Position numbers and translations under genes: made by a program | The notes under the pieces: model-generated | Database searches by the model: none | Told to the model about the DNA's origin: nothing | The model's input: only the letters and a program-made list of their open reading frames with translations | Assembly (NCBI RefSeq): GCF_900107645.1 | Contig: NZ_FNQN01000009.1 | Span: 1-64,000, forward strand | Reading direction: 5' to 3' | Length of the DNA: 64,000 nt | Source of the DNA: Desulfuromusa kysingii | GTDB lineage: Bacteria > Desulfobacterota > Desulfuromonadia > Desulfuromonadales > Geopsychrobacteraceae | Shown here: positions 6,562 to 20,137 of the stretch, in pieces | Layout of the letters: every line of letters begins with the position of its first letter | Position numbering within the stretch: the stretch's first letter is position 1

Positions 6562-7412
6562 AAAAAACAGGATTGTCAATTGTTATTCTTGTTGGTTGTT
6601 TCAGTATCGTTGTTTGGTTAAACGCTGCTGTACACGATGTGCGCAGCAAGCAGATATCGGCAGAAATGAGTGATATAGGTCGGGTTCCTGCATCGGTTTT
6701 AGTCGCTTCCAGCCTCGAATTTAAAGGGGCGATGGCCAACATGATGTTCCTGAATGCGTCAAACTTTATTGGCCGTAAGCTGATGGAACAATCGAAAACG
6801 CTACCGGAAGAATGGCATCAGTTTTACTTGTTACTTGATCGTATCACCACATTAGACGGCAGCTTTTTGGATCCCTATGTTTTTGCCGAGATGATGCTGG
6901 CGTGGCAGGCTCAAATGTATGATGAAGCGAATATGCTGCTGGAAAAAGGGATCAAGGCGCGTCCTGATGATTGGCGGTTGCCCTATTATATTGGCTTTAA
7001 TCATTTCTTTTTTAAAAAAGATTTTGTCCAAGGTGCTAATTACATCAAGCAAGCCGCCGCTATTGATGGCAGCCCCCCTTATTTTCCTAATTTGGCTTCT
7101 CGGCTAGCTTTTTATGGTTCGCGCTCAAAAACGGCATTACTCTTTTTAGAAGAAATGTTGGTACAAAATAAACAAATCAAAATGAGTTCAGAACTGGAAA
7201 AGCGATTAGTGGCGTTACAGGGGGCGGCACAGCTTGAAGATGCTGCATTTTTGTTTATGCAGCAACAGGGAAGAAAAGCGACAAGTATCGACGAGTTGGT
7301 TCAGAATGGCTTCGTTGAAAGTATCCCAACAGAGCCTTATGGTGGGCAGTGGCGTTTACACCCGAATGGACGTGTCGATAGTAGCTCAAATTTTATTACG
7401 GTCGAAAAGTGA
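6558..7412 (+). CDS. Membrane-anchored TPR-like protein of the export operon
   Basis: This 284-residue protein starts at a GTG overlapping the previous stop. Residues 5-25 form one hydrophobic segment, probably a membrane anchor. The middle (FDDANMLLEKGI-like helix pairs, GANYIKQAAAIDGSPPY) reads as degenerate TPR repeats. The last 40 residues (ELVQNGFVESIPTEPYGGQW, then GRVDSSS) resemble the C-terminal strand pattern of type II secretion pseudopilin-like proteins. It has no catalytic motif. The overlaps on both sides place it in the same export operon; a scaffold role is an inference. Confidence 0.75.
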   Translation: MKKTGLSIVILVGCFSIVVWLNAAVHDVRSKQISAEMSDIGRVPASVLVASSLEFKGAMANMMFLNASNFIGRKLMEQSKTLPEEWHQFYLLLDRITTLDGSFLDPYVFAEMMLAWQAQMYDEANMLLEKGIKARPDDWRLPYYIGFNHFFFKKDFVQGANYIKQAAAIDGSPPYFPNLASRLAFYGSRSKTALLFLEEMLVQNKQIKMSSELEKRLVALQGAAQLEDAAFLFMQQQGRKATSIDELVQNGFVESIPTEPYGGQWRLHPNGRVDSSSNFITVEK

Positions 7413-9115
7413 TTTTCCGGGGGATTTTGATAGCGTTGTTGTTTTGCGCTTTAGCGCTTATGACGTTTGGCGTTGTTATTGATGGTGAGCTGATTACGGT
7501 CGATGACCCCGATCAAATGCAACGGATTGAAAAACGTACGAGTTGGAACCTGGAAAAAACGTTTATCAGAAAAAACACCACAGGTCTTTACTATCGTCCT
7601 TTGAATACCCTTTCATTTACTGCCGATAAGCTATTATGGGATGCTGATACGCGTGTGATGCATCTGGAGAATATTGGTTTTCATACCTTAAACGCCCTGC
7701 TGGTTTTATTGCTAACCCAGTCTCTGCTTATTGCGCATCGATACCGCTGGCACTTTTCGGTCCTGGGTGGGTTGCTTTTTCTTTGTCACCCGCTCACCGC
7801 AGAATCGGTTAATTGGCTCTCTGGTCGTACCGATATCCTGGCGGCAACGTTTGTGTTCAGTAGTGCCTTGTGTTTAATGCAGTTTCGTATCAATAGACGT
7901 TTCCGCTGGTTGTTGCCTGCCATCTTTTTTGCTGGGATGGGGGTTTTAGCAAAAGAAACCTCTGTTGCCTTTTTAGCCGGTTTTGGCTTTTTGTTATGGG
8001 CGCAACAGAACCCAACGGGATTGAACTATAAAAAAGTTATCCAACGTCTTTTTATTCTGCTGGGTTTACTGAGCGTTGCTGGCGGTACGGCTTGGTTTCT
8101 AATGGTTCAAATGCGTGAATTGATTTTGAAGGGAGATTCTTCACGTATTGGTCTCACTCTGCGGATTATTGATAGTGATTGGTTCTATTCATTCTTTGTT
8201 TGTCTACGTGCTTTGGGTTTCTATTTTAAGAAGATTTTTCTCCCGCTACCATTAAATTTTGCCATTATCGAAGTTGATCCTCTTTATGAATTGCTTGCGA
8301 TTTCCTTGTTGCTTTTGCTGGTCTATTTGTTCATAAAGCGTTCCATCGTCTCGGGCTATCTACTTACGGCTGCGGCTTTAGTTTCACCCGCTTTTGTCAT
8401 AGCTTTTAATCAGATTGCATGGACCCCGTACGCTGAGCGTTATGTGTATATTTCCTTGGGTTTTGTGTTGCCTGTGGTTGTGGTGTGTTTATCAACCGCA
8501 AAGTTAGCGCCACGATTTATATTCGCTATTTGCCTGCTATTGCTGGGGACCTCGTTTGCTATTTCTTTGCACCGCAGTTGGCAATGGTCGACGAACGAAT
8601 CACTTTGGGCCGATACGGTCAAAAAAAGTCCTTTAAGTGAAAAGGCGTGGAACAATTATGGTGTCGCCTTGGTGGAACAAGGCCGAATTGATGAAGCTGA
8701 AAAATGTTTTAGTGTCGCCGCATCAAAATATAGGTTTGGTTATCACGACAAGTACGATATCAATATGGCCGTGGCGATGATGGAACGACAAGATTATGAT
8801 TACGCTAGACTCAAACTGTTGGATGTGATCAAGCAGTCAAAAGGGAATTCGAACCGGGCTGTCAATGTGTTTTTGGAATTATCGGAAGAGGAATCGCTTG
8901 ATCGCACAACCATTATCCAAGAACTACGAACCTTTTTGTTGCAATTAGCGACCGATACGACGACTGCCGCTTACTATTACCAACTTGGTCGTTTAGAAAA
9001 AAATGAACACAACAAGGAGCTTTCGCAGCGTTATTTTACCCAGGCTTATCATCTTGCCGCTGAATCGGACCCTATCCGTAACAAGGCAGATAAGGAATTG
9101 ACTGAAGGCTTTTAA
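7409..9115 (+). CDS. TMTC-like multipass membrane protein with C-terminal TPRs
   Basis: This 568-residue protein has roughly ten membrane segments, then a soluble C-terminus with TPR-like repeats (about residues 400-568, e.g. AWNNYGVALVEQGRIDEAEKC). Around residue 132 it has NWLSGRTDILA, a motif shared by bacterial TPR proteins related to eukaryotic TMTC O-mannosyltransferases. Such GT-C-fold proteins take lipid-linked sugars as donors outside the membrane. The GTG start overlaps the upstream stop. Likely glycosylation or glycan assembly on the outer face of the inner membrane; the sugar and acceptor are unknown. Confidence 0.75.
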   Translation: MIFRGILIALLFCALALMTFGVVIDGELITVDDPDQMQRIEKRTSWNLEKTFIRKNTTGLYYRPLNTLSFTADKLLWDADTRVMHLENIGFHTLNALLVLLLTQSLLIAHRYRWHFSVLGGLLFLCHPLTAESVNWLSGRTDILAATFVFSSALCLMQFRINRRFRWLLPAIFFAGMGVLAKETSVAFLAGFGFLLWAQQNPTGLNYKKVIQRLFILLGLLSVAGGTAWFLMVQMRELILKGDSSRIGLTLRIIDSDWFYSFFVCLRALGFYFKKIFLPLPLNFAIIEVDPLYELLAISLLLLLVYLFIKRSIVSGYLLTAAALVSPAFVIAFNQIAWTPYAERYVYISLGFVLPVVVVCLSTAKLAPRFIFAICLLLLGTSFAISLHRSWQWSTNESLWADTVKKSPLSEKAWNNYGVALVEQGRIDEAEKCFSVAASKYRFGYHDKYDINMAVAMMERQDYDYARLKLLDVIKQSKGNSNRAVNVFLELSEEESLDRTTIIQELRTFLLQLATDTTTAAYYYQLGRLEKNEHNKELSQRYFTQAYHLAAESDPIRNKADKELTEGF

Positions 9116-9173
9116 CTGTCAGACTTATGTTTGATTGGTCGGGATTTGCTATCTTAAAACGGGACAGGATTTG

Positions 9174-10019
9174 ATGGATTACCATGCATATTTAAAACTG
9201 CTCCGACCCCATCAATGGCTGAAAAACCTGATGCTATTGTTCCCGCCGTTTTTAGCGGGTAAGATATTCAGCGTTGCTATCTGGCAGCAAATTCTCTTTT
9301 CTTTTGTCGCATTTTCTTTGGCTGCCAGTGCGACCTATGTATTTAACGATATTATTGATCGCCACGCCGATAAACTCCATCCGAAAAAGTGTTTAAGGCC
9401 GTTACCTGCAGGTACAATCACTGTCGCTCAAGCCTATTCATTAGCGCTGTTTTTAACCGTTATTGCGATTTCTTTAGGTTTAATCTGGGCGCAATCTGTG
9501 TTGGTCTGGCTGCTAGCCTATATCCTGTTGTCATTACTATATACCTTGGTGCTAAAAAATATTCTGCTGCTAGATCTCCTGACTATCGCGGCATTTTTTT
9601 TGCTCCGTCTACAAGCAGGTGGTGCTGCCAGTCACGTTAACGTTAGTGTGTGGTTGTTTTTGTCGGTGCTTTTGCTAGCATTTTATTTAAGTGCCGGTAA
9701 GCGCCTTGGTGAAATCAAGATGTTGGGAGCCAACGCGCACCACCACCGTAGTTCTTTAGCCGCTTATACGCCGCGATTTCTTAGTCTTGTATTATATGTG
9801 ACCTCAGTTACGGTTTTACTGACTTACAGCATTTACTGTTATACCCACGACAGTCTGTTTTACACGATACCGCTATGTGCCTATGGATTGTTCCGCTATA
9901 TTTACCGCGTTCAACACGGTGGAGACGGTGACCCGACAGCAGCGTTATTGAAAGATCCCCGTTTGCTGATTGTGGGCCTGTGCTGGGTGTTAATGGTTGG
10001 TGTTGATATCTATTTTTGA
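9174..10019 (+). CDS. UbiA-family prenyltransferase (DPPR-synthase-like)
   Basis: This 281-residue polytopic protein carries the UbiA Asp motif NDIIDRHADKLHPKK (about residues 58-72) and the second conserved loop LSAGKRLGEI. In this subfamily the closest known activity is transfer of phosphoribose to polyprenyl phosphate, which makes a lipid-linked pentose donor. That fits a neighbouring GT-C-like protein that would use such donors. ATG 9174 follows GGGACAGGA; the upstream in-frame TTG at 9135 is less likely. Confidence 0.82.
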   Translation: MDYHAYLKLLRPHQWLKNLMLLFPPFLAGKIFSVAIWQQILFSFVAFSLAASATYVFNDIIDRHADKLHPKKCLRPLPAGTITVAQAYSLALFLTVIAISLGLIWAQSVLVWLLAYILLSLLYTLVLKNILLLDLLTIAAFFLLRLQAGGAASHVNVSVWLFLSVLLLAFYLSAGKRLGEIKMLGANAHHHRSSLAAYTPRFLSLVLYVTSVTVLLTYSIYCYTHDSLFYTIPLCAYGLFRYIYRVQHGGDGDPTAALLKDPRLLIVGLCWVLMVGVDIYF

Positions 10020-10040
10020 TCCATTACTTAAGGCGGCAAT

Positions 10041-11795
10041 TTGAAGTCAGCTAGCTCGATAAAAACATATTGGGACAATATTTTATTTTTACAGGTCTAT
10101 CGCCTGTGTTCTCCAGCGTTGCGGAAGCGATTTCACCTCTTATGTGTGGCGATGTTGCTGCTAGCTGTTGGAGAAACAGCGGTAGTGGGGCTCATTGCTT
10201 TTTATGCGGCGGCGGTGTCAGATCCACAGGCAACCTTTAACCTTGCAACATTAGAAACATTGCGCTCATTTTCTGTGTTGGCACCAATTCTCTCTTCTCC
10301 TAAACAGATGATTGGTTGTCTGAGTGTTCTTGTTATTATCGCTGTGCCCTTAAAAAATGCTTTTCGTGGTTTTATAACCTACCGTTCGGCTCGCTATGGT
10401 GCGGTATTGGAAGCATATTTTGGGCAACAGATATTGTCCGGTATTTTAGCGCGTGATTATCGCTGGCACGTGCAACAAAATAGTGCCGATTTGGTGAATC
10501 TGGCGAACTGGCGTCATCACTTGGGGCGCTTTTTTGTTAATCCTTACTTAAAAGTGATCTGTGAATTGAGCATGCTAATGGTGTTGCTAGCCGGGTTATT
10601 GTTGGTGCAACCGTTGGTTTCATTGTTGTTTATTGGTGCTCAGGGTGGGGCGGGCTTCTTGGTCTACCGTGGATTGCGCCGTGGGTTAGATCGCAGTGCC
10701 ACTGGTTGCCGTTCGTGCGATATCGACATGAATCGTCAGATCACGCGTTCAATTCACGGGGTCAAGGATGTCAAAATCACGGCGAGCGCACCGTTTTTTG
10801 TGCGCAAATTTGTCCTGTCGGCACAACGTTTTGCCCAGATGTTCGGTTCGCAGCAATTTTGGCGCGAATCACCGCTGCTGGTTTTAGAATCAATTGGCTT
10901 TGTCCTAATAGCTGGGGCAATATTGCTGATGTTGTTTGGCCTCGGTTATTCGCCGCTCCAGACCACGGGGACGACGGCTCTGCTGGCGGTGACGGCGTGG
11001 CGCACTTTGCCAGCGTTTAATCGGGTGGTTGCCTCACTGGCGGGTATCCGCACCGCGCGTCCTTATGTCATCTCCTTACTAGAGGAACTGAATTCTCGTG
11101 CCCAGTCACATCGGAGTGCGGGTGTGCCTGTACTGGCAATGCCTTTTAATCGACACGTTGTTTTTGATCAGGTCAGTTTTGCTTATACTCCGCAGCAACC
11201 AGTGTTGGAAAATTTCAACCTGACTCTTAAAAAAGGGCAGTCACTTGGTATTATGGGGCCTTCAGGTTGCGGTAAAAGCACCATGGTTGATTTGATGTGT
11301 GGGTTACTGCAACCGCAAAGTGGTACGATTAGTGTCGATGGGGTTGTCTTGACAGAGGATAATCTGCCGTCGTGGCGGCAAAACATCGGTTATGTTCCAC
11401 AAACACCATATATTTTTGACGGCACCTTGGCGGAAAATGTCGCCTTTGGTCTTGAAGCACAGGAGATTGACCTGGAAAGAGTGGCTTCAGCCTGCGCAAT
11501 GGCCAGAATAGATTTCCTCGATCAGTTACCACAGAAGTTTGCTACCCAAATTGGAGAACGGGGCATCCGTTTATCCGGCGGACAGCGCCAGCGGGTGGCG
11601 ATAGCCCGTGCTCTGTATCGTCAACCGCAGTTGCTTATTTTTGATGAAGCAACCAGCGCTCTAGATGAAGATACAGATGCTGAAATTCGACAGTTGCTCT
11701 TGAGTTTAAAGGGAAAGCAGACGTTAATTGTTGTTTCCCATCGGCCATCTACCGTGGCTGATTGCGATATGCTGCTGAAATTAGGTCAAGGTTAG
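10041..11795 (+). CDS. ABC exporter, fused membrane and ATPase domains (MsbA/PglK-like)
   Basis: This 584-residue half-transporter has a six-helix membrane domain (about 1-330) and a C-terminal ATPase with Walker A GPSGCGKST, Q-loop YVPQTPYIF, signature LSGGQRQRVAIARAL and Walker B LLIFDEATSALDE. It likely works as a homodimer flipping a lipid or lipid-linked glycan. The start is TTG 10041, eight bases after AAGG. It is the last clear gene of the export operon; no terminator follows and the next 550 bp are irregular. Confidence 0.9.
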   Translation: MKSASSIKTYWDNILFLQVYRLCSPALRKRFHLLCVAMLLLAVGETAVVGLIAFYAAAVSDPQATFNLATLETLRSFSVLAPILSSPKQMIGCLSVLVIIAVPLKNAFRGFITYRSARYGAVLEAYFGQQILSGILARDYRWHVQQNSADLVNLANWRHHLGRFFVNPYLKVICELSMLMVLLAGLLLVQPLVSLLFIGAQGGAGFLVYRGLRRGLDRSATGCRSCDIDMNRQITRSIHGVKDVKITASAPFFVRKFVLSAQRFAQMFGSQQFWRESPLLVLESIGFVLIAGAILLMLFGLGYSPLQTTGTTALLAVTAWRTLPAFNRVVASLAGIRTARPYVISLLEELNSRAQSHRSAGVPVLAMPFNRHVVFDQVSFAYTPQQPVLENFNLTLKKGQSLGIMGPSGCGKSTMVDLMCGLLQPQSGTISVDGVVLTEDNLPSWRQNIGYVPQTPYIFDGTLAENVAFGLEAQEIDLERVASACAMARIDFLDQLPQKFATQIGERGIRLSGGQRQRVAIARALYRQPQLLIFDEATSALDEDTDAEIRQLLLSLKGKQTLIVVSHRPSTVADCDMLLKLGQG

Positions 11796-12345
11796 TTTTA
11801 TATGTAACAGTTGCGTGGGCAGTAACGATTCTTCTCCCTAGCAAGTTCAGTCAATATTTGATGATTCTTTGCCGGGAATAAAATTGGTCCGGCTGAGTGT
11901 CCTTAAACACCAACGTATCTGATGTGTATTGTGTCTAGGTGCTTGTCTAAAAGAGGTGTCGTCTATGAGCCAAGGGGAAAACGACCAACAGGATGGACGA
12001 AATATGATGATGGTTCAAAAATATGTCAGTTCTGTTCTGGGTGGTCAATCTGACGTTGCTGCTCCGTATGCGGGAAGAGTATGAAGCAGATAGCTCTCTT
12101 TCTTTCAAGGCACTTGCTGAAGATCCATCTTTTTTGTTCCAGATCAGCCAATACTTATCTTGAAACCATTGATGAGATTATTGATAATATGAACCTGACG
12201 TCAATTGTAGCTTTTCATTCTCAGCAGAGCATGGCTGTGCAGGTGCAGACATTGTTGAATGAGCAATAGGTGAAGGGCTTAGTTATTTAATAGTGCCCCG
12301 CATTTCACTGTTTTTACATAGAGGATTACGCAAGGAGATTGTCTT
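11796..12345. other. Gene-poor stretch with small unassigned ORFs
   Basis: No recognisable gene fills this 550-bp stretch. A 39-codon plus-strand frame starts at ATG 11965 behind AGAGGTG and ends at 12084 (MSQGENDQQDGRN...). It overlaps a frame 12023-12163 (MREEYEADSSLSFKAL) and another 12081-12269 ending MAVQVQTLLNEQ. Three short, protein-like, mutually overlapping frames suggest a decayed gene with frameshifts, but I cannot name a parent family. Nothing else is seen from 11796 to 11960. Confidence 0.35.
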
Positions 12346-12582
12346 ATGCTAACGGAATTGATGAAATGCGAACAGCAGGCAAAAAAAATGCCATTGCAGG
12401 AAAGAGCATTATTGATCAGACATCTTATTGAAGGGTTAGATGATCTTGATGAACAAAACCTGCAACATTTATGGATGCAGGAAGCTTCAAGGCGATTTCA
12501 GGAATTCAAGGATGGTAAGATAACCGCGAGATCAAGTCGTGATGTGTTTCGTGAAGTTCGTAAAAAAATAAAGACAATTTAA
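12346..12582 (+). CDS. Putative addiction-module antitoxin
   Basis: This 78-residue acidic/basic mixed helical protein (CEQQAKKMPLQERALLIRHL, LDEQNLQHLWMQEASRR, then FREVRKK) fits the small addiction-module component family often found before RelE/ParE toxins. AAGGAG stands nine bases before ATG 12346. Its stop overlaps the ATG of the toxin frame, the usual toxin-antitoxin arrangement. Since the toxin frame is interrupted, the antitoxin may be an orphan. Confidence 0.75.
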   Translation: MLTELMKCEQQAKKMPLQERALLIRHLIEGLDDLDEQNLQHLWMQEASRRFQEFKDGKITARSSRDVFREVRKKIKTI

Positions 12583-12863
12583 TGCAGGTTGCACCAGCAG
12601 AAATAGAGATGTTCGAAGCTGCGGCATAGTACGAATTGCAAGTTTCAACACTTGGCGAAAATTTCCTTGATATCATTGAAAGCGCTATTGATGGAATAAT
12701 GGATCATCATGAAACGTCCCCGGTAATTGAAAATGGGATTCGAAAGCTGGTGGTGCGTCGTTTTCCTTTTTCGATACTCTATCAAGTTTTTAAAAAAGAA
12801 ATTATTGTTGTCGCAATTATGCATAATAAGCAAAAACCACGATATTGGGTAGATCGTCTATGA
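12582..12863 (+). pseudogene. RelE/ParE-type toxin with in-frame amber codon
   Basis: The ATG overlaps the antitoxin stop and the frame reads MQVAPAEIEMFEAAA, then TAG at 12627-12629, then YELQVSTLGENFLDIIE and on to RKLVVRRFPFSILYQVF and NKQKPRYWVDRL, the typical RelE/ParE body. The stop falls in the conserved EAA-x-YE helix, where a residue such as Trp, Glu or Gln is expected. Every other position is in one frame, so this looks like a single recent nonsense mutation. A TTG at 12636 could restart translation but would drop the first helix. Confidence 0.8.
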
Positions 12864-13015
12864 CGTTACTCACTTTAAAATGTTCCTGTCCTTCTTGTTT
12901 GTTGCTGGCAGTGAATAAAATCAACAATGCCACCCAGGTGGCTATACCTGTGATCAAATCTGCATTATGCGCAACAAATACAGGGCAAGATGTGGGTGAC
13001 ATACGAAGTTTTTAA
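12860..13015 (+). CDS. Small ORF after the toxin, not recognised
   Basis: A 51-codon frame begins at an ATG overlapping the toxin stop (ATGA). It encodes a protein with KCSCPSCLLLAV near the start (three cysteines) and a second hydrophobic part, VAIPVIKSALCATN. The same DNA has a minus-strand frame (12817-13002) of similar quality and a GCCACC-CA-GGTGGC palindrome near 12930. It could be a repeat fragment, not a gene. I do not recognise it. Confidence 0.25.
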   Translation: MTLLTLKCSCPSCLLLAVNKINNATQVAIPVIKSALCATNTGQDVGDIRSF

Positions 13016-13117
13016 ATAAATCTGTCCCCTTTTTCTCTTGTTTAGTTCCTGTTTGTAAAAAATCAGGTTGTTTTTGGGGGTGCTTTTGTTATTTCAATGA
13101 TATTGGAAGGGTGGAGC

Positions 13118-13939
13118 ATGACAATTAATCTATACAAGGAAATATGTCAAAAAAATAGTGGTGAAAATTATCTTATCGACAAATACATTTATCGAAAAAT
13201 ATCAATTTATGGGACGATGTTAGCTATAAAGTTTAAGGTTTCTCCGAACACGGTAACATCATTGAGCTTGCTTGCTGCCCTCGGAAGCCTTTTTTTTATA
13301 GTGCAGAATATCCCTGGTGCATTATTGACGGGCGCTCTGTTGGTGTTTTTGTATCACTACCTCGATCATGTTGATGGGGAATTGGCACGTTACTACATTC
13401 ATAGTGGCCAAATGATCCCAAATATGAAAGGGCAATATTTTGATGTTTTGTGTCACTCATTTTCAGATAATTTGATGTTTTTATGTCTGTCATTTGCTCT
13501 ATATCTTCAATTTGGTCATGCTTATATTCTTTTTTTGGGAGTAATTGCGATGGTTGGTTCAAGCGGTTTCCCAGAAGCAGTAGCAGCAAAACTCCTGTGT
13601 GCAAAAATTATCAACAATAAAAATTTATTAAATGACGAACAGATACAATCAGGCCTGTGGTTGATTGAAAAGAAGAAAAACCAGATCGTCGCAGTGAATG
13701 CTCCGTTTTTTTCTAAAATTAAATTTTTTAAAATAATATCGGAGATATTGGGTTATCCAGGTGTTTTGTCAGCGATAATGTTAGTTTGCATTTTAGATGC
13801 TATATTTGGTGTTCAATCATTATTGGGGTATCAGTTTGATTTCCGTTTATTGTTTTTGATTTTATCTGGATTGTTTAGGTTGATAGTTCTTCCTCTTCGT
13901 TCATACCGGTGGATGAAGAGGTTTGAGGCTATCCATTAA
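13118..13939 (+). CDS. CDP-alcohol phosphatidyltransferase family protein (divergent motif)
   Basis: This 273-residue membrane protein has about six hydrophobic segments. The family motif is present in altered form: DHVDGELAR (residues 83-91), then 13 residues before G105, with D109 kept but the last Asp replaced by His113. The canonical pattern is DX2DGX2ARX8GX3DX3D. These enzymes transfer a substituted phosphate from a CDP-alcohol to a hydroxyl acceptor. ATG 13118 has GGAAGGG eight bases upstream. As the first gene of the phosphonate operon it may use a CMP-phosphonate donor. This is an inference; the altered motif may change activity. Confidence 0.8.
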   Translation: MTINLYKEICQKNSGENYLIDKYIYRKISIYGTMLAIKFKVSPNTVTSLSLLAALGSLFFIVQNIPGALLTGALLVFLYHYLDHVDGELARYYIHSGQMIPNMKGQYFDVLCHSFSDNLMFLCLSFALYLQFGHAYILFLGVIAMVGSSGFPEAVAAKLLCAKIINNKNLLNDEQIQSGLWLIEKKKNQIVAVNAPFFSKIKFFKIISEILGYPGVLSAIMLVCILDAIFGVQSLLGYQFDFRLLFLILSGLFRLIVLPLRSYRWMKRFEAIH

Positions 13940-14008
13940 GTTAAATTTTAGGTTTCAAACACTGCTTTTGCCAATTATTGGTTATTTTTTTAAAGGATAA
14001 AGACTGCA

Positions 14009-15298
14009 ATGAAGAAAGTTTATGTGGGAATGAGTGCCGACTTGGTTCATCCAGGGCACATGAATATTTTAAAGGCAGCATCATCGCTTGGTGATGTTGT
14101 GGTTGGACTTCTTACCGATAAGGCAATAGCAAGCTATAAAAGATTGCCTTACATGACCTATGATCAGCGGAAAGTTGTGATTGAGAACATAAAAGGTGTT
14201 TCGGAGGTGATTCCTCAAGAGACTCTGGATTACAGGCCAAATCTTGAGCGTATAAAACCAGATGTTGTCGTCCATGGTGATGACTGGAAAAGCGGTACTC
14301 AGGCAAAGACAAGGCAGCAGGTTATTGATGCACTAGCAACGTGGGGAGGGGAACTCGTTGAGGTAGCGTATACCGAGGGTATTTCATCGACCTATCTGAA
14401 TAAATCATTAAGGGAGATAGGTACTACCCCGGACATTAGAAGATCTCGGTTGAAACGGTTGATAGATACAAAGTCTATTGTTCGAATAATGGAAGCTCAT
14501 AATGCTTTAAGTGGCTTAATTGTAGAAAATGTAATGTGCGAAAGTGGTGTGGAATATGATGGTATGTGGAGTAGTTCTTTAACTGACTCTACCTCGAAAG
14601 GGAAGCCAGACATCGAGGCCGTAGATGTGAGCACAAGGGTAACTACAATAAATGAAATTTTCGAAGTAACAACCAAACCGATGATCTACGATGCTGATAC
14701 TGGAGGCATTCCAGAGCATTTTGCTTTTACCGTTAGAACTCTGGAACGAACAGGGATCAGTGCTGTAATTATTGAAGATAAAACAGGTTTAAAAAAGAAT
14801 TCACTATTTGGTAATGACGTTACTCAAACCCAAGACTCCATAGAGAATTTCTGTCAAAAAATTCAAGCGGGCAAAAAATCACAGATAACCGAAGATTTTA
14901 TGGTTATAGCTAGAATTGAAAGTTTGATTCTTGAACAGGGGATGGATGATGCTATTGCCAGGGCGAAAGCCTATGTAGAAGCAGGAGCCGATGGGATAAT
15001 GATACATTCACGCCTGAAGTCACCAGATGAAATCCTGGAATTCTGCAGATTGTTCAGATCCTATCACGATACTGTGCCAATAGTAGTTGTGCCAACAAGT
15101 TACAATCAAGTAACCGCAAATGAGCTTTGTCGTGCTGGGGTTAACGTTATTATTTATGCCAATCACATGTTGAGGGCCGCTTATCCCGGTATGCTGAATG
15201 TAGCCAAATCAATTCTTGAAAATGATAGAAGTTTAGAGGCTGAGCAATCTTTGTTGTCAATAAAGGAAATTCTTGAACTTATACCGGGGACAAAGTGA
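14009..15298 (+). CDS. Cytidylyltransferase-phosphoenolpyruvate mutase fusion
   Basis: This 429-residue protein joins two domains. Residues 1-135 are a cytidylyltransferase with HPGH (14-17) and the ISSTYL motif (125-130), as in enzymes that activate phosphonates or phosphoalcohols with CTP. Residues 150-429 are a PEP mutase with DADTGG (228-233) and the diagnostic [10 protein letters not shown] (256-265; EDKX5NS), which separates mutase from isocitrate-lyase relatives. The mutase makes the C-P bond by converting PEP to phosphonopyruvate; the first domain would later make a CMP-phosphonate. It overlaps the decarboxylase start. Usual PepM alone is about 300 residues, so the fusion is the notable feature. 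Confidence 0.93.
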
Positions 15299-16431
15299 TG
15301 AAAATCAGTGCAGCGGATTTGGGCAATGAACTAAAGAGCTTAGGCTTTGAATTTTACTGTGGTGTTCCCTGCAGTTTTTTGAATAACCTTATTAATTACG
15401 CCATCAATGAGTGTGATTACGTTATGAGCAATAATGAGGGTGATGCTGTTGCTATCTGCGCAGGAGCCTATCTGGCTGGTAAGAAATCTGTTGTTTTAAT
15501 GCAAAATAGCGGGTTAACAAACGCCACATCGCCACTGACCTCTTTAAATTATTCTTTTAAATTACCTGTACTTGGTTTTGTTAGCTTGCGAGGTGAACCC
15601 AGATTAAATGATGAACCGCAGCATGAGTTGATGGGAACCATCACTGAGAAAATGCTCGAGTTGATGCAGGTTAAATGGGAATACCTGTCAAATGATATAG
15701 CTGAGGTTAAATGCCAAATAGCAAGGGCGAATGAGTCCATTGAAAACAAAGAATCTTTTTTCTTTATTGTAAAGAAAGGGGTACTGGGAGCAGTTGAACT
15801 AAAACCGCAACAATTAAATAAAAATACCAATAAATTTTTAAAAGTTAAATCAGAAGATGATGAATTAGCAATGCGCTTAAATGTCATTGAAACTATAACT
15901 GCGACTAAAGCAGATGATACTGTAATATTGGCAACAACGGGGAAGACTGGTAGAGAGCTTTATGAAGTAGAGGATTCCCAGAATAATCTATATATGGTTG
16001 GCAGTATGGGAAGTATCAGTTCAATTGGGCTTGGAATTGCTCTGAACAGCAATATGAAAACAATCGCAGTTGATGGTGATGGCGCTCTCCTGATGAGAAT
16101 GGGAAATCTGGCTACGAATGCATATTACTCGCCCGCTAACCTGCTCCATGTTTTAATCGATAACAATATGCACGATTCTACCGGGGGGCAATTTACTGTT
16201 TCTAGCAATGTCGACTTTGTGCAGATAGCAGCAAGTACTGGTTATGAAAACAGTATTTATGTCCATTCGTTGGACGAATTAAAGAAAACAATTATCGGTT
16301 GGTACCGGAACCCTGTTTTGACTTTTATCTATATCAAGGTAAGAAATGGAACCAAAGAAAACCTTGGTCGTCCGAAAATTAAACCATATGAAGTTAAAGA
16401 ACGGTTGATGGAGTTCATCCGTGAAAGATAG
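15298..16431 (+). CDS. Phosphonopyruvate decarboxylase
   Basis: This 377-residue thiamine-diphosphate enzyme has an N-terminal pyrimidine-binding part (FYCGVPCSFLNNLIN, NNEGDAVAICAGAYLAGK, LMQNSGL) and a C-terminal pyrophosphate-binding motif GDGALLMRMG ending with IDNN. It decarboxylates phosphonopyruvate to phosphonoacetaldehyde, the step that makes the mutase reaction run forward. ATG 15298 shares a base with the previous stop; GTG 15295 is the alternative. It overlaps the dehydrogenase start by 11 nt. Close relatives include sulfopyruvate decarboxylase, but the neighbouring mutase settles the substrate. Confidence 0.93.
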   Translation: MKISAADLGNELKSLGFEFYCGVPCSFLNNLINYAINECDYVMSNNEGDAVAICAGAYLAGKKSVVLMQNSGLTNATSPLTSLNYSFKLPVLGFVSLRGEPRLNDEPQHELMGTITEKMLELMQVKWEYLSNDIAEVKCQIARANESIENKESFFFIVKKGVLGAVELKPQQLNKNTNKFLKVKSEDDELAMRLNVIETITATKADDTVILATTGKTGRELYEVEDSQNNLYMVGSMGSISSIGLGIALNSNMKTIAVDGDGALLMRMGNLATNAYYSPANLLHVLIDNNMHDSTGGQFTVSSNVDFVQIAASTGYENSIYVHSLDELKKTIIGWYRNPVLTFIYIKVRNGTKENLGRPKIKPYEVKERLMEFIRER

Positions 16432-17494
16432 CTTTGCTTATCATATGCCAACTAAGATCGTATACGGAATAAATTCTATTTGCGATATTGATCAATATAT
16501 TAATGGCAGAAAAACTTTGTTGGTTACTTCAAGAGGGGCTTTGTCTCGTGGTCTTGTAGCGCAGATACTTTCATTGACATGTGCTGTTATTCACGTTGTC
16601 TCAGATATAAATTCTCATCCTGAGTTTGTAGACCTTGAAAAAAATTACAATAGTTTAAATAATGTAGACTTTGAATTAATTTTGGCCGTCGGTGGTGGTA
16701 GTGTCCTCGATGCAGCAAAGTTCATATCCGTATATAGTAGCGAAAAAAACTCAACTTTTGTAACTAAATTAACAAAAGGGGTGATTCCTCATCAAGAGTA
16801 CCATCTTAAACCAATCATTTCAGTTCCAACAACGGCTGGAACCGGAAGTGAAATAACTCCATGGGCTACAATTTGGGATATGGATGAAAGGAAGAAGTAT
16901 TCTTTACATTTGCCGGAACTTTTTAGCGAAATGGCTATTTATGATCCCGCGTTGACATTGACATCTCCTGAAAATATTACCATTCAGACAGGTTTGGATA
17001 CCATCTCCCATGCCCTTGAATCAATCTGGAACAAGAACGCAAGCCCAATTACTGTTGATTATGCCATAAAGGCAGCCAGACTGGTTTTAGAATATCTTCC
17101 GAAACTGGTTAATGATTTGGATGAGATTCACTATCGGGATAAGTTAATGCAAGCATGTATGTATTCAGGTCTTGCTTTTTCCAACACCCAAACAGCACTG
17201 GCACATGCTATCAGTTACCATGTTACTGCGAACAAGGGGGTAGATCATGGGATCGCTTGCAGTTTTACATTGCCATTGTTGATTGATAACGTAATAGGTC
17301 GCTATGAATTTATAGATAATGCCTTGGAAGAAATTTTTGGAGAGCTTTCATCTCAGAAAATGAGAAATTTGTTATCGTCATTAAATATTTCAACAAAATT
17401 TTCAGATTACAAAATTGACGATGACGAACTTTGTAAAATAAAGTTGTTACTAGAAAACAATCAAAGAGCAAGTAATAGTTTGGTAAGTTTATGA
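16421..17494 (+). CDS. Iron-type alcohol dehydrogenase, likely phosphonoacetaldehyde reductase
   Basis: This 357-residue group III alcohol dehydrogenase shows the nucleotide-binding GGGSVLDAAKF, the GTGSEITPWAT segment and metal ligands within GLDTISHALESIW, LAHAISYH and DHGIACS. In phosphonate pathways an enzyme of this class (PhpC type) reduces phosphonoacetaldehyde to 2-hydroxyethylphosphonate. The GTG start lies inside the end of the decarboxylase gene. There is no aminotransferase nearby, so 2-hydroxyethylphosphonate, not 2-aminoethylphosphonate, is the expected product; this is inference. Confidence 0.88.
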   Translation: MKDSFAYHMPTKIVYGINSICDIDQYINGRKTLLVTSRGALSRGLVAQILSLTCAVIHVVSDINSHPEFVDLEKNYNSLNNVDFELILAVGGGSVLDAAKFISVYSSEKNSTFVTKLTKGVIPHQEYHLKPIISVPTTAGTGSEITPWATIWDMDERKKYSLHLPELFSEMAIYDPALTLTSPENITIQTGLDTISHALESIWNKNASPITVDYAIKAARLVLEYLPKLVNDLDEIHYRDKLMQACMYSGLAFSNTQTALAHAISYHVTANKGVDHGIACSFTLPLLIDNVIGRYEFIDNALEEIFGELSSQKMRNLLSSLNISTKFSDYKIDDDELCKIKLLLENNQRASNSLVSL

Positions 17495-17649
17495 TGCAAC
17501 TATATTATTGTGTGGTGGTTAATTTAAAAAAGAATCGACTGGCAAATTGCAGTAAATTATTGGCCTCAGCTAGTTTCCTACAATTACAGTATTTTCAAAA
17601 GTTTACGGCCTTGCAATCAAGTTGTTCAAGCATTTGGAGTTCGATTTAA
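17491..17649 (+). CDS. Small ORF coupled within the phosphonate operon, not recognised
   Basis: A 52-codon frame starts at an ATG overlapping the dehydrogenase stop and ends two bases before the ATG of the next phosphatidyltransferase. The product starts MMQLYYCVVVNLKKNRLANC and ends in a Ser/Cys-rich tail. It has no known motif. The exact fit between two genes suggests either a coupling leader or the 5' remnant of a lost operon gene. It could also be chance. Confidence 0.3.
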   Translation: MMQLYYCVVVNLKKNRLANCSKLLASASFLQLQYFQKFTALQSSCSSIWSSI

Positions 17650-17651
17650 CG

Positions 17652-18377
17652 ATGGAGTTTTCCAGAGGTTATATTTCTAGTACTGATGTTGTATCAAAAC
17701 TGTCATTAAGAACTTGGTGGGGATTGCTGTTGGTGCTGCCTCTGAGTGTTAAACTCACCAGATTTATCGTCAATCGCACTTCGTGGTCACCAAATACAAT
17801 TACTGTTGTTGGGATAGGACTGCGTTTGTCTACAGCGGCTTTGTTTTTATGGGCGACGCCACTGTCTTTGATTATTGGTGCGCTTACTTATATTGCAGCT
17901 TATGTGTGTGATTGTACTGATGGTACAGTGGCGCGTTTGACAGGGAAAACTTCTGAATTTGGTCGTTATCTCGATCATGTTGCCGACCTTTTGGGCGATA
18001 TCCTGATCCTGTTGGTTCTCGCTTCGGCGCAGAATCTTATTTCTATGCCGTGGATATGGGCAATGGTGTTTATGCATGTAGTGGAATGCTATATCAGCTA
18101 TATGACTGGTTTTGCTTTAAAACAGCATCATGGTGAAATGGGAAACTTTGTTTTGTTTCGTTGGTTTAACCTTTATCGTCAGTGGTGGTTCAGGCGTAAT
18201 CTTAAATCTTTTCTCTCTTTTTCCGATTATACCGCATTGGTATTTGTGTTGTTTCCATTGTTGGGACTTCCTGCGCTTGGGTTGATTATTGGTTTCTGGC
18301 TACTGTTGGTTGTGGTGTTATACACGGTTTTATCAACTTTTGTGTCGTTGCATACATCGGTAAAACAGTTCCCGTAA
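17652..18377 (+). CDS. CDP-alcohol phosphatidyltransferase family protein
   Basis: This 241-residue polytopic enzyme has a perfect family motif: DCTDGTVAR (87-95), eight residues, then GRYLDHVAD (104-112), i.e. DX2DGX2ARX8GX3DX3D, which binds two divalent metals and the cytidine nucleotide. It would transfer a head group from a CDP- or CMP-activated donor to an acceptor alcohol in the membrane. ATG 17652 is chosen, with GGAG at 17636-17639; an upstream TTG at 17622 is possible. Its place at the end of the phosphonate operon suggests it installs the phosphonate, perhaps on diacylglycerol or a glycan lipid. Confidence 0.87.
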   Translation: MEFSRGYISSTDVVSKLSLRTWWGLLLVLPLSVKLTRFIVNRTSWSPNTITVVGIGLRLSTAALFLWATPLSLIIGALTYIAAYVCDCTDGTVARLTGKTSEFGRYLDHVADLLGDILILLVLASAQNLISMPWIWAMVFMHVVECYISYMTGFALKQHHGEMGNFVLFRWFNLYRQWWFRRNLKSFLSFSDYTALVFVLFPLLGLPALGLIIGFWLLLVVVLYTVLSTFVSLHTSVKQFP

Positions 18378-18436
18378 AATTTTTGTGATAGTTGTGCGGC
18401 GTATGGTAATCATTTAATAAAATCATCAAGATATAT

Positions 18437-18997
18437 ATGGACATTCTATTAATTGATTATCCAGCTCTAGCCCGCAAACTACTTACGCTAAAAGAATAAG
18501 CTGGGGGCAGGTGTTTACTGTTTACTTTTGCTGAATCTTTTGATGCTGCACAGATTATGCAATATATGCGACAGTTTTCCACTTATGAAGTAATTAACAA
18601 AAGTCCTGAGCGGTTGGATCTTTTGATCAACGGGGTTAAGGTGACTTTTTTTAATGCTAAATGGTCATTTCTGCGCCCAGAATAATTACAACCATTGAAT
18701 GTCGCGAGTTTGTCGGCGATTGCGGTCATGAAAATTAATGTATTGTTTGTCCGCGCAAAATATCGTGATTATTATGATCTGTATTGTCTGGCGAAACGCG
18801 GGATGGGGTTGAGGGCTATGTTTGATTGTACCCTGCCAATTGTTGATGGTTTAACCTTTAAGTTGTTCAGTGTTGCATTACTGTATATTGATGATATTGA
18901 TGACGATACGATTGCACACCTTGAACCTGAAGAAATTGTTGATAAAAAAGAGATCAGGTCTTTTTTTGAAAATCAGCTTAAAGCAGAATTGTTATAA
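18437..18997 (+). pseudogene. Decayed AbiEii/DUF1814-like nucleotidyltransferase
   Basis: A single frame of 186 codons from ATG 18437 has ochre stops at 18497-18499 and 18683-18685. Its second half (ATYRDYYDLY-like RAKYRDYYDLYCLAKRG, KLFSVALLYIDDIDDD, HLEPEEIV) matches the C-terminal part of AbiEii/AbiGii-toxin-like nucleotidyltransferases. The first half jumps from AGGR straight to LFTFAE, so the usual catalytic stretch between the GG motif and the DFDLF motif seems deleted. Two stops plus a deletion make it non-functional. It marks old mobile or defence DNA at the island edge. Confidence 0.75.
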
Positions 18998-19051
18998 GGA
19001 CGTTGTGTCGCTGTTATGAAGTTCCAATTGTACCGTTTTTGAAAGTTCCCT

Positions 19052-20137
19052 TTGAATAAAATCTCTTTTTTGAAAAAAATAGATTCAGCTGTCGGGCCGC
19101 TTCTGGCGCGCCTGTTTCCTCAGTGCCCAATGCCTGCGAATAGCTTAACTGATATCCAGCAGATTCTGTTTATTCGCCCCGGTGGAATAGGTGATGCGGT
19201 GTTGCTAATTCCGGCAATACAAGTGCTCCGTTTGCGTTATCCGCACGCCAAAATTGAGGTACTCGCCGAAAAACGTAATGCTGTGATATTTGAGTTGTGT
19301 CCTCAGGTTGATAAGATTTTTTGTTATGATCGCTGGCGTGACTGGAAACGTTTGTTTTGTAGCAGTTACGATCTGATTATCGATACTGAACAATGGCACT
19401 ATTTATCTGCTGTGATTGCCCGTCTTCTTCGCGCACCCGTTCGGCTTGGTTTTGCGACCAATGCCCGATCTAAGTTGTTTACCCATCCCGTTTCTTATTC
19501 ACATGATGACTATGAAGTGTTCAGCTTTTATCACCTGCTTCATCCGTTGGGGACAGTTTGTAGTCGTGAGTTGAATTCCCCTTTTTTAACTGTTCCTGAA
19601 GCAGTGAAATCTGCAACTGAACTGCTTGATTCTGTGTCCGAGGGGTATGTTGTTCTTTTTCCGGGAGCAAGTATTCAGGAGCGTCGCTGGGGAGAGCGAA
19701 AATTTGTGGCATTAGCTGAGAAGATTGCAGCGCTCGGCTTCCCACTTGTTATTGTCGGGGGTGATGATGATTTGACTGTTGGTGAAGCTGTTGAGAAAAA
19801 CGTTGTGTCGGCAAAGAATATGGCAGGGAAAACTTCTTTATTGGAAACGGCATCAATCCTGAGAGGCGCCACTCTTTTGATCAGCGGTGATTCTGGCGTT
19901 TTACATATGGCTGTCGGCTTGGGAATCCGGACGGTTTCATTGTTTGGACCGGGAATCGCAAAGAAATGGGCTCCATCTGGGCATCGACACACAGTTATAA
20001 ATCATCATTTACCCTGTTCCCCCTGCACTCGATTTGGTACCACACCTCCATGTCCGATAGGGGCTAAATGTCTTCAAGATATGACTGTTGATGAAGTTTT
20101 CACTGCCGCTGAAACTTTGCTGCATAGCCATGCATAA
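19052..20137 (+). CDS. Glycosyltransferase family 9 (heptosyltransferase-like)
   Basis: This 361-residue cytoplasmic enzyme has the GT9 N-terminal RPGGIGDAVLLIPAI (about 38-52), a central VVLFPGAS and the sugar-nucleotide site SGDSGVLHMAVGLG followed by LFGP. GT9 enzymes add heptose from ADP-heptose to the lipopolysaccharide core. A Cys-rich segment near the end (CSPCTRFGTTPPCPIGAKC) is common in this group. The start is uncertain: TTG 19052 has no clear ribosome binding site and a later ATG at 19130 exists. The gmhA-hldE-gmhB genes next door supply its donor. Confidence 0.88.
   Translation: MNKISFLKKIDSAVGPLLARLFPQCPMPANSLTDIQQILFIRPGGIGDAVLLIPAIQVLRLRYPHAKIEVLAEKRNAVIFELCPQVDKIFCYDRWRDWKRLFCSSYDLIIDTEQWHYLSAVIARLLRAPVRLGFATNARSKLFTHPVSYSHDDYEVFSFYHLLHPLGTVCSRELNSPFLTVPEAVKSATELLDSVSEGYVVLFPGASIQERRWGERKFVALAEKIAALGFPLVIVGGDDDLTVGEAVEKNVVSAKNMAGKTSLLETASILRGATLLISGDSGVLHMAVGLGIRTVSLFGPGIAKKWAPSGHRHTVINHHLPCSPCTRFGTTPPCPIGAKCLQDMTVDEVFTAAETLLHSHA

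Follow-up and report, generated by a model that had tools for sequence, protein, structure and literature searches.

Phosphonates of bacterial surfaces are made by pathways whose steps after formation of the carbon–phosphorus (C–P) bond have been termed enigmatic (PMC6697681). According to the same source, PF01467 fusions represent 23.6% of the 1485 phosphoenolpyruvate (PEP) mutases counted, and the first domain of Fom1 produces the cytidine monophosphate (CMP) ester of 2-hydroxyethylphosphonate (HEP), CMP-HEP. In fosfomycin synthesis, the conversion of PEP into this ester is achieved by Fom1, Fom2 and FomC (PMC8158854). For phosphonate lipids, a set comprising PepM, a cytidine diphosphate (CDP)-alcohol phosphatidyltransferase and a transaminase has been proposed in a lichen Nostoc and compared with a Burkholderia cluster (PMC5987646). 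The locus described here lies in a 64-kb stretch of DNA from Desulfuromusa kysingii (contig NZ_FNQN01000009.1, positions 1 to 64,000, hereafter the window; source genome of 3.74 Mb in 27 contigs), where five + strand genes stand in a row and encode a CDP-alcohol phosphotransferase (cdp1), a cytidylyltransferase–PEP mutase fusion, a phosphonopyruvate decarboxylase, an iron dehydrogenase and a second CDP-alcohol phosphotransferase (cdp2). The preferred reading, with a probability of about 0.58, is that a cassette making CMP-HEP has entered a head-group island and that cdp2 is the likelier transferase of the phosphonate onto an envelope acceptor. The steps leading to CMP-HEP are well predicted from sequence; the use of CMP-HEP by cdp2 is suggested by the pairing of the genes.

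13118..13939, + strand: cdp1, divergent CDP-alcohol phosphotransferase (PF01066 23.8 bits, cut-off 22; alternative in-frame ATG at 13097)
14009..15298, + strand: Fom1-like fusion, 2-HEP cytidylyltransferase domain at about residues 1–137 and PEP mutase at about 148–429
15295..16431, + strand: phosphonopyruvate decarboxylase, Fom2-like role (TIGR03297 396 bits, above the equivalog cut-off of 312.5)
16421..17494, + strand: iron-containing alcohol dehydrogenase, predicted phosphonoacetaldehyde reductase with a FomC-like role (PF00465 114.4 bits)
17652..18377 (ATG start; frame open from TTG at 17622), + strand: cdp2, canonical CDP-alcohol phosphotransferase (PF01066 53.7 bits, cut-off 22)

Predicted route to CMP-HEP

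In the proposed mechanism, the PEP mutase of the fusion would form phosphonopyruvate, the decarboxylase would convert it into phosphonoacetaldehyde, the iron dehydrogenase would yield HEP, and the first domain of the fusion would activate HEP to CMP-HEP. The fusion has the architecture of the Fom1 type, with a PF01467 domain (53.4 bits) carrying the HxGH and ISST motifs (as HPGH and ISSTYL) ahead of a PF13714 domain (200.7 bits), whose mutase part passes the TIGR02320 equivalog cut-off (421.6 versus 319.55) and contains EDKx5NS as a ten-residue stretch. With PDB chain 5x3d_A the cytidylyltransferase domain aligns at 199 bits, 87 of 134 residues being identical (65%); from its chain length and its name, 5x3d is presumably the Fom1 domain, the entry being named just phosphoenolpyruvate phosphomutase. 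Compared pairwise, the same domain gives 194 bits and 66% identity over 131 residues with 5x3d, versus 69 bits and 40% (95 residues) with the TagD of the relative G840, and it is therefore closer to the Fom1 cytidylyltransferase domain than to TagD. Given this 65% identity to the domain that makes CMP-HEP in fosfomycin synthesis, the trio of fusion, decarboxylase and dehydrogenase very likely makes CMP-HEP, as judged from sequence.

The distribution of these genes was surveyed in related loci. A contig scan with an alignment of five fusions provided the best 80 of 581 confirmed relatives, and adding the window and four loci found in a phylum search gives a set of 85; this set represents the best matches to this kind of fusion and not a random sample, and it excludes loci L009–L020 (matched chiefly in the mutase domain), 29 viral loci and the plasmid loci. 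EDKx5NS is found in 85/85, HxGH in 79/85 and an ISST-like motif in 72/85. As a separate observation, L025 (1823–4556; G353:C73) holds a fusion with an altered first-domain motif (HEGH, no ISST), and its next protein joins a radical-SAM-like cysteine motif, recognized by eye, to a second cytidylyltransferase-like domain. The trio is present in 70 of the 85 loci. A transaminase occurs in four, none of which has the trio or the ISST motif and all of which have a PntC-like match; many surveyed contigs stop shortly past the fusion, and absences there are not proof.

The first-pass annotation, made from the sequence alone, had described the five-gene set and had deduced a CMP-activated hydroxy, rather than amino, phosphonate from the missing aminotransferase. 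All five genes are borne out by profile scores, open frames and the three fusion motifs, and the hydroxy form is upheld by the identity to the Fom1 domain and by the absence of a transaminase from all 70 trio loci. An aminoethylphosphonate product was rejected on this count and on the lack of any match to the aminoethylphosphonate-transaminase profile in the window. The missing aminotransferase is a feature of the operon and not of the genome, which encodes one elsewhere (TIGR03301, 514 bits versus a cut-off of 360.8). This PhnW-type transaminase lies in L145 (2301–10168; G000:C8, 141–149 kb) with a HAD hydrolase, an ABC transporter and a class III aminotransferase, a stretch probably devoted to aminoethylphosphonate uptake and breakdown.

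Enzymes of the same kinds as the first three yield HEP-CMP in the fosfomycin route, and this would also fit an operon feeding a small diffusible, fosfomycin-like phosphonate with the transferases as coincidental neighbors. Such a role is hardly credible, as the ten genes scanned (7409–20137) show no radical SAM, cobalamin or epoxidase domain, and the operon sits in an envelope locus that includes exporter and heptosyltransferase genes. Fosfomycin itself was rejected as product, with no Fom3 methylase or Fom4 epoxidase domain in these ten genes, the genome beyond them not having been searched.

The transferase cdp2 and its relatives

CMP-HEP resembles a CDP-alcohol, with carbon instead of oxygen on the second phosphorus. 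A membrane CDP-alcohol phosphotransferase would take the phosphonyl group of HEP from this ester and pass it to a hydroxyl of a membrane-bound acceptor, with release of CMP; the putative acceptor is a lipid or a lipid-linked glycan of the envelope locus. Here cdp2 would be the likelier transferase, and cdp1, co-acquired and modified, would be either a second transferase or inactive.

The signature motif of cdp2 is complete (DCTDGTVAR-x8-GRYLDHVAD, for D1xxD2GxxAR...GxxxD3xxxD4), with an additional His after D3, and residues D97, D100, D118, H119 and D122 (numbering from 17622) are invariant in the six sequences aligned. A Foldseek search with its low-confidence model (mean predicted local distance difference test score, pLDDT, 60) retrieved AF2299 (E 1.5e-5); the models of cdp1 and cdp2, built on five-row alignments, were used for fold class and not for active-site geometry. 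Of the 136 genomes searched in the order, nine carry the gene, its own included, the transferases of the others being 46–66% identical to it, and a class-level search returned 7 of 146 genomes, again with its own, one being the distant G517. In the eight other genomes of the order, cdp2 lies beside (seven) or near (one) a synthase gene of CDP-glycerol type or probable CDP-ribitol type. A TagD-type gene is immediately upstream in five (L140, L141, L142, L154 and L159), and all five pass TIGR01518 (181–194 bits versus 165). In L139 this place is taken by an IspD-SDR gene that passes NF001183 (D-ribitol-5-phosphate cytidylyltransferase) as well as the ispD model and, given its fused SDR domain, would probably make CDP-ribitol; in L158 the end of an IspD-SDR gene adjoins cdp2 at the contig edge. 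In L143 the immediate upstream neighbor is a TagF-type gene, and three genes upstream lies a TagD-family gene whose score of 93 bits is under the cut-off. No PEP mutase match was found in the stretches read around cdp2 in these eight genomes.

In the genome of the window itself, no TagD (TIGR01518) scores above cut-off, the best matches being the fusion (60 bits) and an HldE frame (41 bits). The PF01128 matches consist of an IspD whose next gene is IspF-like, a GlmU-like protein (names assigned by reading) and one match below cut-off, with no further IspD. Since its relatives in the order pair cdp2 with CDP-alcohol synthases and two family searches revealed no other such synthase in the source genome, cdp2 probably predates the AT-rich cassette in this lineage and is the enzyme most likely to use the new head group. 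The age of cdp2 in this sense means presence in the order and not inheritance in the genus, as it is missing from the 13 same-genus genomes listed; together with the occurrence of the exporter in 2 of 31 genomes of the family, this makes the island itself patchy. The preferred reading implies that the locus is a modular head-group island: the phosphonate cassette would have taken the place of the CDP-alcohol synthase found beside cdp2 in relatives. A fuller version, with conversion of the locus from glycerol or ribitol phosphate to HEP transfer by synthase replacement and with the His-bearing cdp1 as maybe a dedicated CMP-phosphonate transferase, is tentative and falls a little short of even odds.

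As to the acceptor, the excerpts of a study on the eukaryotic choline phosphotransferase CHPT1 state that a His after D3, with its paired Glu, is absent from most bacterial enzymes and link it to activation of the diacylglycerol hydroxyl (PMC10182977). By analogy, the His after D3 in cdp2 hints at a lipid-like acceptor, though cdp2 is without the paired Glu.

Several points weigh against the preferred reading. By ancestry, cdp2 may act on a different CDP-alcohol, produced by a kind of enzyme that was not searched for, and a tree joins cdp2 of the window with two IspD-SDR-partnered relatives (support 96/95), apart from the TagD-partnered ones; that the transferases use ordinary CDP-alcohols, a possibility the first-pass annotation had raised against its own proposal, is thus a live rival for cdp2, yet neither a glycerol-3-phosphate cytidylyltransferase nor an IspD beyond the housekeeping ispD–ispF pair was found in the genome. 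The absence of cdp2 from the same-genus genomes counts here too, as do the low mean pLDDT values of the models (61 for cdp1, 60 for cdp2). The best NCBIfam match of the dehydrogenase, TIGR03405, reaches 351.5 bits, under the cut-off of 423.7; being below the cut-off of this phosphonate-specific model, the enzyme owes its role to context, by which it is predicted to be of the phosphonoacetaldehyde reductase kind without being classed as PsrA. The fusion and decarboxylase genes overlap by 4 nt and the decarboxylase and dehydrogenase genes by 11 nt, but cdp2 begins 127 nt (TTG start) or 157 nt (ATG start) beyond the dehydrogenase, and a promoter and terminator scan gave no excess over shuffled sequences (19 versus 23.3 expected and 5 versus 5.2 expected), so that a single transcript for the operon is not shown and co-transcription of cdp2 is not supported. 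Finally, just three of the 85 loci (the window, L034 and L103) have a CDP-alcohol phosphotransferase gene within 8 kb of the fusion. L034 (Stackebrandtia bin) and L103 (Nanoarchaeota bin) each have two, and in L065/L115 one is found at 9.5 kb.

Other surveyed loci offer a different candidate transferase. A LicD or TagF-type match is found within 8 kb of the trio in 50/70 loci, a count from profiles trained on the members of the survey itself that includes weak matches down to about 22 bits; at least 100 bits are reached in 27/70. With stricter clustering, LicD/TagF-type genes appear in 30/85 loci, often about 2.2 kb past the fusion, in the slot after the dehydrogenase. A Segatella plasmid has genes for PEP mutase, decarboxylase, reductase and CDP-glycerol glycerophosphotransferase followed by O-antigen genes in one run, and the relatives of cdp2 adjoin CDP-glycerol-type and IspD-SDR genes. 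CMP-HEP could then be placed on a surface polysaccharide by a LicD/TagF-type enzyme encoded elsewhere, with cdp1 and cdp2 serving unrelated lipids or polyol phosphates. This explanation is considered unlikely, with no gene of LicD or TagF type matched anywhere in the window and no CDP-glycerol or IspD-SDR type synthase found by the genome searches to supply cdp2; for the LicD and TagF families the search covered the window and not the remaining genome, which also tells against the preferred reading.

The divergent gene cdp1, the cassette and its borders

In cdp1 the motif reads DHVDGELAR-x13-GQYFDVLCH, with His in place of D4 (residue 113 from 13118) and a spacer five residues longer. The protein thus passes PF01066 but fails the complete signature with D4. 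Foldseek against PDB placed CDP-alcohol phosphotransferases at all ranks from 1 to 15 (best E 5.1e-3, from a poor model with mean pLDDT 61). It is a family relative by fold, and its activity is uncertain because the catalytic motif is changed. Located about 70 nt ahead of the fusion, and with the low GC content (35%) in common with the cassette, cdp1 is best explained as part of it, co-acquired. Relatives are scarce and none is close: 3 of 146 genomes of the class including its own, the other two being local matches at 33–35%, and four of the 20 genomes holding fusion loci, at 28–34%. None was found in 298 genomes of the phylum of G527, an empty result that, lacking a known positive, shows nothing. 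Searches of 72,556 plasmids and of the viral contigs returned no match to cdp1; for cdp2 there was none in the viral contigs, and plasmids gave weak matches only (six records for cdp2, five for the L103 protein considered below).

The altered D4 position of cdp1 has a counterpart in L103: about 50 nt downstream of its fusion lies an oppositely oriented CDP-alcohol phosphotransferase gene whose product carries Glu for D3 and His for D4. A family member of L065 has Glu at D3 with D4 kept, and the other 22 distinct family genes compared have Asp at both positions. Changes at D3 or D4 thus concern 3 of 7 members in Fom1-type-fusion loci (cdp1, L103 11342 and L065) and 0 of 18 elsewhere, in a small, non-random sample (26 rows reduced to distinct genes, L065 and L111 counted as one) in which two of the 18 (L026 and L116) come from aminoethyl-type PEP mutase loci; the search pattern is blind to proteins without D1, D2 or AR. 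The window and L103 each hold a second, canonical CDP-alcohol phosphotransferase. It was also observed that L103 (9956–12022, 15846–16514), a contig labeled Nanoarchaeota, possibly wrongly, contains the HEP trio, the two CDP-alcohol phosphotransferases and PntC-like genes.

These data bear on another explanation, according to which cdp1 is the dedicated CMP-phosphonate transferase of the cassette and cdp2 a leftover of the earlier island. Its position and GC content, and the His at D4 of the fusion-adjacent L103 protein when 23 other distinct members (18 outside and 5 inside fusion loci) have Asp, speak for such a role. However, cdp1 and the L103 protein share 22% identity over 135 residues and form no clear single subfamily, so that their common His could have arisen by convergence or be accidental. 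The source of the L103 contig is a metagenome bin. In PgsA1, D4 is a metal ligand and the proposed catalytic base (excerpts of PMC6506517), which means that the change may signify lost activity. This role for cdp1 is regarded as improbable. The idea of the first-pass annotation that membrane transferases put the activated phosphonate on an envelope carrier is retained in its direction. Its assumption of a single acquired set is abandoned: cdp1 goes with the cassette, whereas cdp2, with eight orthologues in the order, belongs to the island, and the two as one set were rejected for cdp2 on this ground.

Among the surveyed loci, the closest fusions (78–82%) are from Campylobacterota bins (L028–L032 and L067), the closest dehydrogenases (59–66% identity) from L028–L032, and the closest decarboxylase (76%, the next at 48% or less) from L078, an Arcobacter sp. 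EP1 bin whose cluster carries a transaminase. Because these closest relatives lie in different Campylobacterota loci, the cassette looks, by sequence, mosaic and foreign. A search of 395 genomes of the phylum matched the fusion in 17 at 1e-20, near full length in five including its own, and apart from the own genome no match falls in the same class. GC content is 35% in cdp1, 41% in the fusion, 39% in the decarboxylase, 36% in the dehydrogenase and 41.5% in cdp2, versus 44–49% in the two genes to the left and 42–47% in the five to the right. Horizontal acquisition of the AT-rich part, as first proposed from composition, is supported, and so is the envelope setting defined by the flanking features:

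9135..10019, + strand: UbiA-family polyprenyl-phosphate phosphoribosyltransferase-like gene (NF008978 210.3 versus cut-off 207), left locus border common to some relatives
10041..11795, + strand: ABC exporter with membrane and ATPase parts fused (PF00005 123 bits), left border of the variable part
11796..13096, + strand: debris, with an addiction-module antitoxin (12346–12582) and, after an in-frame stop, a ParE-like toxin remainder (12636–12863)
18695..18997, + strand: AbiEii nucleotidyltransferase gene fragment (PF08843 25.2 bits across 43 residues), right border
19052..20137, + strand: heptosyltransferase-family gene (PF01075 105 bits), right locus border in relatives

The relatives of cdp2 share these borders in part: homologues of the UbiA-family gene are in L141, L142, L143, L154 and L159, those of the exporter (48–65% identity) in L139, L142, L143 and L154, and the heptosyltransferase near cdp2 in L139–L143 and L154, with heptosyltransferase and prepilin peptidase with pilus genes as recurrent borders in L140–L143 and L154. 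The UbiA-family gene, in an envelope locus with heptose genes, barely passes the decaprenyl-phosphate phosphoribosyltransferase model. In the debris, PF09720 is over its cut-off (45 bits) and PF05016 slightly under it (21.4 bits versus 23). The gene debris on both sides and the motif change in cdp1 might indicate an acquired operon that is decaying between toxin–antitoxin and AbiEii fragments and is not expressed; with five open reading frames, intact motifs in the fusion and cdp2 and the decarboxylase score, this is highly improbable.

Other arrangements were observed in passing. L138 (8611–9917; G528:C179) contains a tandem pair of CDP-alcohol phosphotransferases, a LicD-type gene and a small cytidylyltransferase-like gene, and the same genome has the HEP locus L032 on another contig. 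Twenty-nine viral contigs (L163–L191; e.g. L169 8001–10895) encode PEP mutase or the fused domain. In 25 of them, a decarboxylase in two pieces and a short Fe-dehydrogenase accompany it, although some of the contigs are near-duplicates of one another; L169, part of a 139.8-kb contig, also encodes a dUTPase and a Holliday junction resolvase, both of phage families, and a collection of phage records gave two unannotated matches. By sequence this looks like a phage-borne hydroxyethylphosphonate cassette, for which no paper was found in a limited literature search.

Comparison with described systems

If the preferred reading is true, cdp2 and its close relatives, predicted to act on phosphate alcohols, are a ready set for asking what permits the use of a C–P donor, a hydrolysis-resistant head group joins the known envelope decorations, and the locus is an example of a bacterial envelope decoration swapped by a cassette. 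A literature search covering few subscription journals found no paper on a hydroxyethyl type with a CDP-alcohol phosphotransferase.

The locus resembles the early fosfomycin pathway of Streptomyces (Fom1/Fom2/FomC) in its fusion, decarboxylase and reductase. Unlike the fosfomycin cluster, it has membrane transferases and envelope genes, and neither a methylase nor an epoxidase domain turned up in the ten genes scanned. With the phosphonyl tailoring clusters of Rice et al. (2019; PMC6697681) it has in common the CMP activation of a surface phosphonate. However, the worked examples in the excerpts of that paper concern PntC (PF12804) acting on aminoethylphosphonate, with LicD-like or glycosyltransferase neighbors, and its text mentions neither phosphatidyltransferase nor CDP-alcohol.

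Islands of the same order with TagD or IspD-SDR genes (L139–L143, L154, L158 and L159) have the same transferase and several have the same borders, but they are predicted to use glycerol phosphate, or probably ribitol phosphate, as head group and not a phosphonate. The CDP-choline:diacylglycerol transferases CHPT1/CEPT1 share with cdp2 the CDP-alcohol fold and the His after D3, while the paired Glu of CHPT1 is Arg in cdp2 (excerpts of PMC10182977).

With the Nostoc and Burkholderia phosphonolipid clusters, an arrangement also found in L116 (Burkholderia stagnalis) and L026 (place of L009), the window shares PEP mutase, decarboxylase and CDP-alcohol phosphatidyltransferase. As described in the excerpts of PMC5987646, those clusters have a transaminase and an NTP transferase for an aminoethyl product, whereas the window combines a hydroxyethyl route with a Fom1-type fusion and two transferases; without a transaminase match it falls outside this predicted cluster type, but it may work alike with another head group. 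Phosphonolipid clusters with a CDP-alcohol transferase have thus already been proposed for the aminoethyl form, and the hydroxyethyl variant with a Fom1-type fusion is a different form.

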